Source: SAR202 cluster bacterium
Lineage (GTDB): Bacteria; Chloroflexota; Dehalococcoidia; UBA6926; VFHL01
Assembly: GCA_009392005.1 (NCBI GenBank)
Contig: VFHL01000002.1
Coordinates: 62,001-126,000, forward strand
Direction of reading: 5' to 3'
DNA: 64,000 bases
Below, in pieces: positions 57,847-60,174 of this stretch. The notes under the pieces are model-generated. The model saw nothing but the letters and a program-made list of their open reading frames with translations. It made no database searches and was not told where the DNA came from. Numbering within the stretch: the stretch's first letter is position 1; every line of letters begins with the position of its first letter. The position numbers were made by a program, and so were the translations under genes.

Positions 57847-58614
57847 ATGTCGAACCGTATATTTTTGATCAACGTTGGAGTCAATGCCTCTCACAGTGCC
57901 CAAAGCCCGATTTTCCCAGATGGACGATTTGAATTCTTGCCTATACCAGAAGAACGAGAATGGTGGTCGCCGCCGCTTCCTACCTACGCCAAACTCGATT
58001 GTTTCAACCAACCTGGTGAACCATTAACCCGCTATACAACTGATCGGCATCGTGGAATACACGTTCACAACGACCCAGAATTCGAAACTTTCACATATGG
58101 AGACAATTGTGCGGAAAGCCCCAGAGCCGCTGCGTTAGCCCAAGTTGAACAAGGGGATTATCTTCTTTTCCTAGCTCGTCTTGTGGATCACGTAAACGGG
58201 AAATTCACCAAAAATGCCGGGTTTTATTTCATCGGATATATTCGTGTCGAAAATATTTTAAGGAACGTTCGCGCATTTCCATTCGGATCCGACTTCACTA
58301 TCTTTGGTGCCAACGCACACATTCGGCGAGCAATTTATCACAAGAAAACATTGAATGGTTTCTGTGTCTTTAAAGGCGACGCGTCATCACGCCGTTTTGA
58401 ATATGCAGTTCCCCTCGATAAAGTGACTGCGAACCGCCTTTTCCGAGACGCGCGCGGGCAACCATGGAGATGGGATACACGGCGCTCAGATTTACAAACT
58501 ATTGGCTCCTACACCCGTTCATGCCGGTGTGTGTTGGACCCAAACAATGCAGATGAGAGTGAACGCTCTCTCATGCTTTGGGAACACATTAGAGCAAATA
58601 ACCCCAAGGCCTAG
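57847..58614 (+). CDS. Nmad3-like protein (nucleotide-modification-associated domain)
   Basis: This 255-residue protein contains SPIFPDGRFEFLPIPE (20-35), then GDNCAESPRAAALAQVEQGDYLLFL and FYFIGYIRVENIL. The order SPI-x-PDG-x5-LPIP, then an alanine-rich helix, GD-x-LLFLA and IGYI, is what I recall for Nmad3, a domain predicted to act in DNA base modification systems. No DNA methylase or other modification enzyme is adjacent, but queG, a 7-deazaguanine enzyme, is divergent at 189 bases. I could not verify the family, and the molecular activity is unknown. There is no Shine-Dalgarno before ATG 57847. Confidence 0.55.
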   Translation: MSNRIFLINVGVNASHSAQSPIFPDGRFEFLPIPEEREWWSPPLPTYAKLDCFNQPGEPLTRYTTDRHRGIHVHNDPEFETFTYGDNCAESPRAAALAQVEQGDYLLFLARLVDHVNGKFTKNAGFYFIGYIRVENILRNVRAFPFGSDFTIFGANAHIRRAIYHKKTLNGFCVFKGDASSRRFEYAVPLDKVTANRLFRDARGQPWRWDTRRSDLQTIGSYTRSCRCVLDPNNADESERSLMLWEHIRANNPKA

Positions 58615-58629
58615 AGATACTTGGTTGCC

Positions 58630-59478
58630 CTAAAGAATTAGCGGAGTTTCCTCTCTATTCGCCCATTCGCCCATTGACCCATCATAAACACGTACTCTGC
58701 TATAGCCGAGCAGTGTCAAAATGAAAGCACCGTGCGCCGCACGGATTCCAGCTTGTCAATATGTAATGATTTGTTTATCAGGTGTTACACCATTTCTCTC
58801 GAACAATTCGTGGAGTTCACTCGCAGGTTTGATTATTCGATATCTATCTTGTTGAATGAAATTGAGCCATTCCAAATGAACAGCACCAGGAATCCGACCC
58901 GCTCTGTTATTACCACGAGTAGTGTCGCTTCCTTCCCATTCTCCATCTGACCGGACATCAAGAAAAATCGTGTCCGATTTCCCTACCTGCTCTAAAGCGT
59001 AATCTAATATACAAACGTTATCTGGATTATTTTCGGGAACAAACGTTTTCGCTACTATATCTGTCGGATCAATAGAAACTGCGCGCTGCTCATCAAACCA
59101 TTTTGCCCACCCACCATTCAATATTTTCACCTCTGTGTGACCATAATGATTTAACACCCACCACATGCGGGCAGCATACAATCCTCCCGAATGATCATAT
59201 GCGACCACAACTGTATCCTTATCAATCCCCATTCCGCTCATTAATGCTGCAATATAATCAGGGTCCGCCACAAGAGGATTGTTGAAACGATCATCCAAGT
59301 AATTAGGACCTTTAAGGTAATGATGCTCTGAAATTCCCACTGCATTTTTTATATGGGCGCGAACAAAATGTTCGTACTGATCACAGTCAATGATCCGGAG
59401 ATTCGCATCTTCTAAATGAGCCTCAAGCCAATCGGTTTCAACCAATAAATCTGGACGCGCATAACCGCCATGTGTCAT
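58630..59478 (-). CDS. Two-domain rhodanese sulfurtransferase with in-frame TGA at the catalytic Cys (selenoprotein candidate)
   Basis: Conventional translation stops after 240 residues at TGA 58758-58756. Readthrough gives 282 residues. The TGA sits exactly where two-domain thiosulfate/mercaptopyruvate sulfurtransferases have the active-site Cys (ITY-C-Q-x-G-x-R): here ITY-[TGA]-QAGIRAAHGAF. The following 41 codons (LLGYSRVRVYDGSMGEW, ending NREETPLIL, TAG at 58630) are a normal rhodanese end with no frameshift. Domain 1 (about 10-125) is the usual inactive half (VAYDHSGGLYAARMWWVL); domain 2 holds DVRSDGEW and GRIPGAVHLEW. AAGGGGTG precedes the ATG. A SECIS-like hairpin follows the TGA. Selenocysteine best explains this; a nonsense mutation is the alternative. 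Confidence 0.82.
58725..58754 (-). promoter_or_regulatory. SECIS-like hairpin just downstream of the in-frame TGA
   Basis: In the mRNA, CCGUGC-GGC-GCACGG (58744-58730) forms a perfect 6-bp upper stem with a GGC loop. A lower AAGC/GCUU stem (58754-58751 with 58728-58725) closes it across a 6x1 internal loop. Seventeen bases separate UGA from the apical loop, and the loop starts with G. These values agree with the bacterial SECIS rules as I remember them. Confidence 0.65.
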
Positions 59479-59577: not shown

Positions 59578-60174
59578 ATGACGATCGCTGAACTACTGGT
59601 CCACGACACAGAGCTAGATCAATTTATTGAAGTTATGGATCATAGATTGCCATCTATTGATGCCGTAGAAGAAAAAATCACAGCACTTCACGAATCGTTT
59701 TATTTTTTGTTATCCAAGGATTTCATTCCACGAGAATACAAAAAAGACATCCCGGGAATCTTTGCGCAATACCTTTTATATAGGAATGCAGAACGAAACT
59801 TGTCACTAATGGCGATGGTCGTTCCACCTAAAATTTCAACACCAATCCATAATCATCTTGCATGGGGATTAGTTGGAGTCTACCAAGGAACACAACGTGA
59901 AATAGTATATGAAACGATTGGAGAACCTGACCTCGAACATAACCAAGCACAACTTAGAACTATATCTGAAAACATTCTCGAAATTGGTGATATTACAACG
60001 CTGGAGCCTCCACATAATGACATTCATATGATTGAAACAATATCTGAAGAGCCATCGATCTCTTTACACTTACTTGGAAATGATATCGGCTGCCAAGCAC
60101 GCCATGCTTTCGATCAAGAGTCTAATTCTGTTAGGCAATTTACGTCTGGATATGTTAATGCCGAATGCAATTGA
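59578..60174 (+). CDS. Cysteine dioxygenase-like cupin
   Basis: This 198-residue cupin has an iron site typical of thiol dioxygenases: H91 and H93 in TPIHNHLAWGLVGVYQG and a third His, probably H150, in NDIHMIET. The C-terminal ISLHLLGNDIGCQARHAF is also like the cysteine/3-mercaptopropionate dioxygenase group and its COG5553 relatives. Such enzymes oxidise a thiol to a sulfinate with O2. AGGAG precedes the ATG. It is divergent from the rhodanese gene across 99 bases, which suggests a common role in thiol or sulfur compound breakdown. The exact thiol is unknown. Confidence 0.78.
   Translation: MTIAELLVHDTELDQFIEVMDHRLPSIDAVEEKITALHESFYFLLSKDFIPREYKKDIPGIFAQYLLYRNAERNLSLMAMVVPPKISTPIHNHLAWGLVGVYQGTQREIVYETIGEPDLEHNQAQLRTISENILEIGDITTLEPPHNDIHMIETISEEPSISLHLLGNDIGCQARHAFDQESNSVRQFTSGYVNAECN

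Follow-up and report, generated by a model that had tools for sequence, protein, structure and literature searches.

The window, by which we mean the whole 64,000-nucleotide stretch of SAR202 cluster bacterium DNA that was analysed, carries on its minus strand a rhodanese gene with an in-frame TGA near its 3' end and a hairpin just beyond that codon. The features at this locus are as follows.

58630 to 59478, minus strand: two-domain rhodanese (sulfurtransferase) gene, 282 amino acids with predicted selenocysteine (Sec) at 241, from PF00581 and phmmer
58756 to 58758, minus strand: in-frame TGA, the predicted Sec codon, at the catalytic Cys position in the motif U-Q-A-G-I-R, from TGA versus TGC/TGT in homologues
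58730 to 58744, minus strand: predicted SECIS hairpin CCGUGC-GGC-GCACGG, with its loop after 17 nt from the UGA, from folding and homologue comparison
58736 to 58738, minus strand: apical loop GGC, whose first G is the wobble base of Ala codon +6 (GCG)
58725 to 58754, minus strand: span of the initial annotation, with an AAGC/GCUU lower helix; the outer helix is not conserved

The rhodanese frame runs from an ATG at 59478 through 240 codons to the TGA at 58758-58756, and continues for 41 sense codons to a TAG at 58632-58630. Read through, the frame matches PF00581 at 9e-38 (129.3 bits, cut-off 22.2), and by phmmer its residues 5-279 align with the solved rhodanese 1uar, as well as with 3hzu and other solved two-domain sulfurtransferases; the catalytic Cys of these enzymes stands opposite the TGA residue, which lies in the C-terminal domain of the rhodanese. 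Sec and Cys are exchanged at a functional Cys position that is flanked on both sides by conserved coding, the pattern used to recognise a selenoprotein. The closest NCBIfam model, NF008557 (3-mercaptopyruvate sulfurtransferase SseA), gives 121.6 bits, well under the curated 250-bit cut-off, and so offers no basis for assigning a substrate class. Standard annotation would truncate the rhodanese at Tyr240 and lose the active site, and would do likewise for dozens of related genes, mostly in Dehalococcoidia/SAR202 genomes.

After the TGA the minus strand reads CAAGCTGGAAT, then the 5' arm CCGTGC (58744-58739), the GGC loop (58738-58736) and the 3' arm GCACGG (58735-58730), bearing out the perfect CCGUGC/GCACGG stem with a GGC loop 17 nt from the UGA that the initial annotation had described. 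The distance falls within the rule for bacterial SECIS elements of 16-37 nt from UGA to apical loop (PMC13188914); the loop is 3 nt long with G at positions 1 and 2, as the rule asks; and the stem, 6 bp without a bulge and with an MFE of -13.6 kcal/mol, lies within the limits of 4-16 bp and at most -7.5 kcal/mol. Set against the consensus bacterial SECIS (bSECISearch model; PMC13188914 Fig. 2A), the window hairpin is wholly inside, with its distance near the 16 nt lower limit. The SECIS limits that the initial annotation had given are near the published values, except that the loop is given there as 3-9 nt and not 3-14. A search of the whole window against Rfam at the gathering threshold matched nothing except a tRNA.

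Taken by itself, the window sequence provides modest evidence for a SECIS, evidence that is only suggestive. The dinucleotide-shuffle energy of the whole hairpin stretch is unremarkable (z -0.59), a measure that is not informative for a single sequence; a synonymous-codon shuffle gives a moderate z of -2.2, and 654 of 20,000 synonymous recodings (3.3%) yield an equal or longer stem conforming to the SECIS model. The caution raised earlier, that the conserved R-A-A-H-G codons could produce pairing by chance, was thus justified for one sequence. Because the window sequence alone is weak, comparison with homologues is needed.

We collected 147 distinct homologous genes, of which 123 were non-redundant after removal of near-copies: 78 have TGA and 45 a Cys codon (TGC or TGT) at the catalytic position, and no other codon was found there. 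All six stem pairs are kept in 63 of the 78 TGA genes and in 0 of the 45 Cys genes, so that the comparison proposed initially as a way to refute the SECIS, equal pairing in Cys-encoding homologues, did not do so. The mean best model-conforming stem, with G-U pairs counted as half, is 6.7 bp in TGA genes versus 3.4 bp in Cys genes; the structure is selected in the Sec genes and lacking from the Cys homologues, as expected of a SECIS.

The clearest result of the comparison is that the wobble positions of the hairpin are frozen in the TGA genes alone. Arg+5 is CGT in 64/78 TGA genes and 8/45 Cys genes, Ala+6 is GCG in 72/73 and 15/33, and Ala+7 is GCG in 71/72 and 10/39; elsewhere in the same TGA genes the frequency is 9% for CGT and 29% for GCG. 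In genomes at 32-43% GC, TGA genes with the canonical hairpin keep CGT GCG GCG CAC (CAT in one), and Cys genes at 29-30% GC have CGT GCA GCA CAT or AGG GCA GCT CAT; the low-GC TGA relatives L074 and L080 have five of the six pairs only. The first loop G is invariant in all 56 aligned canonical Sec-type elements, and as the Ala+6 wobble base it is under neither protein nor pairing constraint. The stem does not form in Cys homologues whose peptide is identical or almost so (L150, at 30% GC, L154 and L163 are examples), and of the sister genes L031 (TGA) and L032 (Cys), separated by about 0.2 changes per column, the latter has neither the loop G nor the stem bases. Across homologues the evidence for a SECIS hairpin is overwhelming. 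Within the set, the closely similar Sec rhodaneses L063-L066 have this hairpin too but come from records that carry the label Deltaproteobacteria or Candidatus Binatia, which suggests either movement of the gene across phyla or mislabelled bins.

Covariation was assessed in 56 canonical Sec elements, in which the upper stem shows 99.4% pairing. Three of the six pairs have changed on both sides: pair 1 (C-G/G-C/A-U), pair 4 (U-A to G-U) and pair 5 (G-C to U-A), with most of the cells (13) at pair 1 and pairs 4 and 5 resting on one and two sequences, respectively. The covariation score was reached by 0 of 500 shuffles, and slid registers score lower; some of the covarying changes alter residues, from R-A-A-H-G to R-S-A-N-G and from H to L. 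A lack of compensatory changes among Sec relatives had been named as a second possible refutation; these changes are present, and some groups have their hairpin elsewhere. The AAGC/GCUU closing helix fared differently. Its bases are present (58754-58751 and 58728-58725), but ViennaRNA folds that region into other pairs, only 60.3% of its cells are paired in 56 relatives as against the figure for the upper stem, and its inner pair is unpaired in 40 of the 56; we reject this lower helix.

The host genome (1.6 Mb, 13 contigs, 95% complete) encodes the set expected of a selenoprotein host, namely tRNA-Sec (SelC; 73.9 bits, anticodon UCA), SelA (542 bits), SelB (378 bits, with C-terminal SelB winged-helix domains) and SelD (377 bits, with an in-frame TGA in C-A-G-U-A-G). 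SelB over cut-off is found in 29 of 31 listed TGA-rhodanese genomes versus 44 of 88 others (Fisher p ~9e-6), and the TGA-rhodanese genomes without it, G002 and G062, are 78% and 63% complete. SelD itself (L168; G000:C7:83770-84687, minus strand) is a predicted selenoprotein with a hairpin GCGCAG-GUU-CUGCGU whose loop lies ~33 nt after the UGA. The same genome has a second TGA rhodanese (L130; G000:C7:103745-104548, minus strand), 44% identical and with the hairpin TGCGTGC-GGC-GCACGCG; the 11-mer GTGCGGCGCAC has two occurrences in the 1.6-Mb genome, only in its two TGA rhodanese genes.

With the Sec/Cys contrast and the covariation both in agreement, the bacterial SECIS reading of the initial annotation is supported: judged by sequence comparison, the window hairpin is almost certainly a bacterial SECIS that would direct Sec insertion at the UGA of the rhodanese. 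The opposing reading, that the pairing is a by-product of the R-A-A-H-G residues and GC-rich codons and that the TGA truly ends translation or the gene is truncated, draws on the position of the stem in conserved codons, on the roughly 3% of recodings that pair equally well and on the weak single-sequence z. We consider it very improbable, since the stem is missing from Cys homologues whose peptide is identical or almost so, the wobble freezing is confined to TGA genes, including those in genomes of 32-43% GC, and TGA recurs at this codon in 78 non-redundant homologues, in which the coding beyond it is conserved. More improbable still is that near-cognate suppression or an altered genetic code lets TGA be read as some other residue, the hairpin doing no more than stimulate read-through. 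Hairpins downstream of stop codons can do this, but TGA is an ordinary stop in the window, where it terminates 7 of the 40 ORFs of at least 200 amino acids; the codon sits exactly at the catalytic Cys position, where relatives have TGA or Cys codons only; and the full Sec machinery is in the genome.

A refinement of the SECIS reading, that SelB of this lineage recognises the exact sequence GUGC-GGC-GCAC and not a generic G-containing loop, is consistent with a core that is near-identical over a wide GC range and with the 11-mer that marks both Sec rhodaneses of the genome. We regard it as unlikely, since the identity is mostly explained by protein sequence and pairing, TGA relatives have versions with UUC-GGC-GAA stems, GUC, GUN, GUUC and bulged GGU, and SelD of the same genome carries a different hairpin.

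For the SECIS as we read it, comparison at the sequence level shows that TGA and Cys codons exchange, that the RNA is under selection and that the genome encodes the machinery; we infer that SelB binds and that Sec is in fact inserted, as well as the chemistry and substrate of the enzyme. The hairpin would form in the mRNA 11 nt after the UGA and present the GGC loop, to which, by the established bacterial pathway, SelB with Sec-tRNA-Sec and GTP would bind during UGA decoding. The UGA would then be decoded as selenocysteine and the last 41 residues made. In the C-terminal rhodanese domain Sec241 would stand in for the catalytic Cys; as the nucleophile of the loop UQAGIR it would carry sulfane sulfur (or selenium) as a selenenyl-sulfide-type intermediate.

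The hairpin is found at other sites in parts of the family. The RAANS group is without the 17-nt stem and has a stem GGCGAACA-GUN-UGUUCGUC whose loop lies at 25 nt; here the 25-nt stem is invariant, and the Ile and Arg codons of the other register are free to vary at their wobble bases. Two further kinds both place the loop at 20 nt: in RAAVA/RAAFA genes (L111, L112) the stem closes a loop of four bases, and in RSSV genes (L140, L141) the loop is GGU and the stem spans 8 bp with a single bulged U; codon-shuffle tests on single genes of these two kinds were mostly not significant. The SECIS of E. coli fdhF has a GGU-type loop and a bulged U, and L140 and L141 resemble it in the GGU loop and the single bulged base, with the bulge on the 3' arm; the window hairpin, with no bulge and a GGC loop, does not. 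At L140 (G014:C52:27300-29900) two TGA rhodaneses adjoin, with the GGU-loop hairpin and its one bulged U.

A quick tree (LG+G4, SH-aLRT support only), built without the hairpin residues, requires at least 10 Sec/Cys changes and 14 among hairpin classes as labelled by the analyst, and interleaves the 17-nt and 25-nt forms within one well-supported clade. Well-supported branches hold 6 independent Sec/Cys contrasts, of which 4 are as expected and 0 opposite (p 0.125), too few for significance. We think it probable that the SECIS was re-sited more than once within the family, at 17, 20 and 25 nt and with differing stems and loops over aligned codons, the synonymous constraint moving along with it. 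If this is so, the family is a natural experiment in SECIS loss, regain and shift, and in what SelB requires.

Sec rhodaneses have been predicted as selenoproteins since 2005, so the window gene adds to a known kind. The Sargasso Sea survey (PMC1088965) listed the rhodanese-related sulfurtransferase COG2897 as a new family of selenoproteins and drew a SECIS for it; the family was listed again in the GOS survey of 2008 (PMC2398784) and has a selenoprotein entry in a 2022 review (PMC9312934). The published Sec rhodaneses (COG2897/SseA, cd01449) resemble ours: Sec takes the place of the catalytic Cys, a SECIS is predicted shortly after it, and the hosts are marine bacteria. The window gene probably matches 'rhodanese form 4, UxxG' of a 2026 review (PMC13188914), with whose table it has the U-x-x-G motif in common. 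The surveys include 3 and 8 sequences, compared with 78 TGA and 45 Cys non-redundant genes here, which are likened to the published members by description; new relative to them are the codon freezing, the covariation and the hairpins at differing sites. A partial literature search found no paper joining SAR202 with selenoproteins, and the Chloroflexi/Chloroflexota papers that it found (including PMC1794560) are, by title or abstract, not about the window gene; nor did the search, partial and not specifically aimed there, find among the records retrieved a paper describing shifted hairpins within the Sec rhodanese family. The comparative evidence for the window hairpin is unusually clean, and the family offers a large, clean comparative set for bacterial SECIS elements, combining codon freezing, covariation, matched Sec/Cys sisters and variable hairpin sites, that could be used for training SECIS finders and for testing the loop features read by SelB.

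Five neighbours of the rhodanese in the window were searched by tblastn against the flanks of 80 relatives (at most 1.5 kb per side), and 0 of the 5 were found, with the rhodanese positive control recovered. One of the window's neighbouring genes, divergent from the rhodanese at 59578-60174 (plus strand), resembles 3-mercaptopropionate/cysteine dioxygenase (phmmer 1.8e-17; nothing over cut-off in Pfam); a sulfur-metabolism link between this thiol-dioxygenase-like neighbour, absent from the relatives' flanks searched, and the rhodanese is possible. The gene at 57847-58614 (plus strand), which adjoins the rhodanese, encodes an Nmad3 (nucleotide modification associated domain 3) protein.
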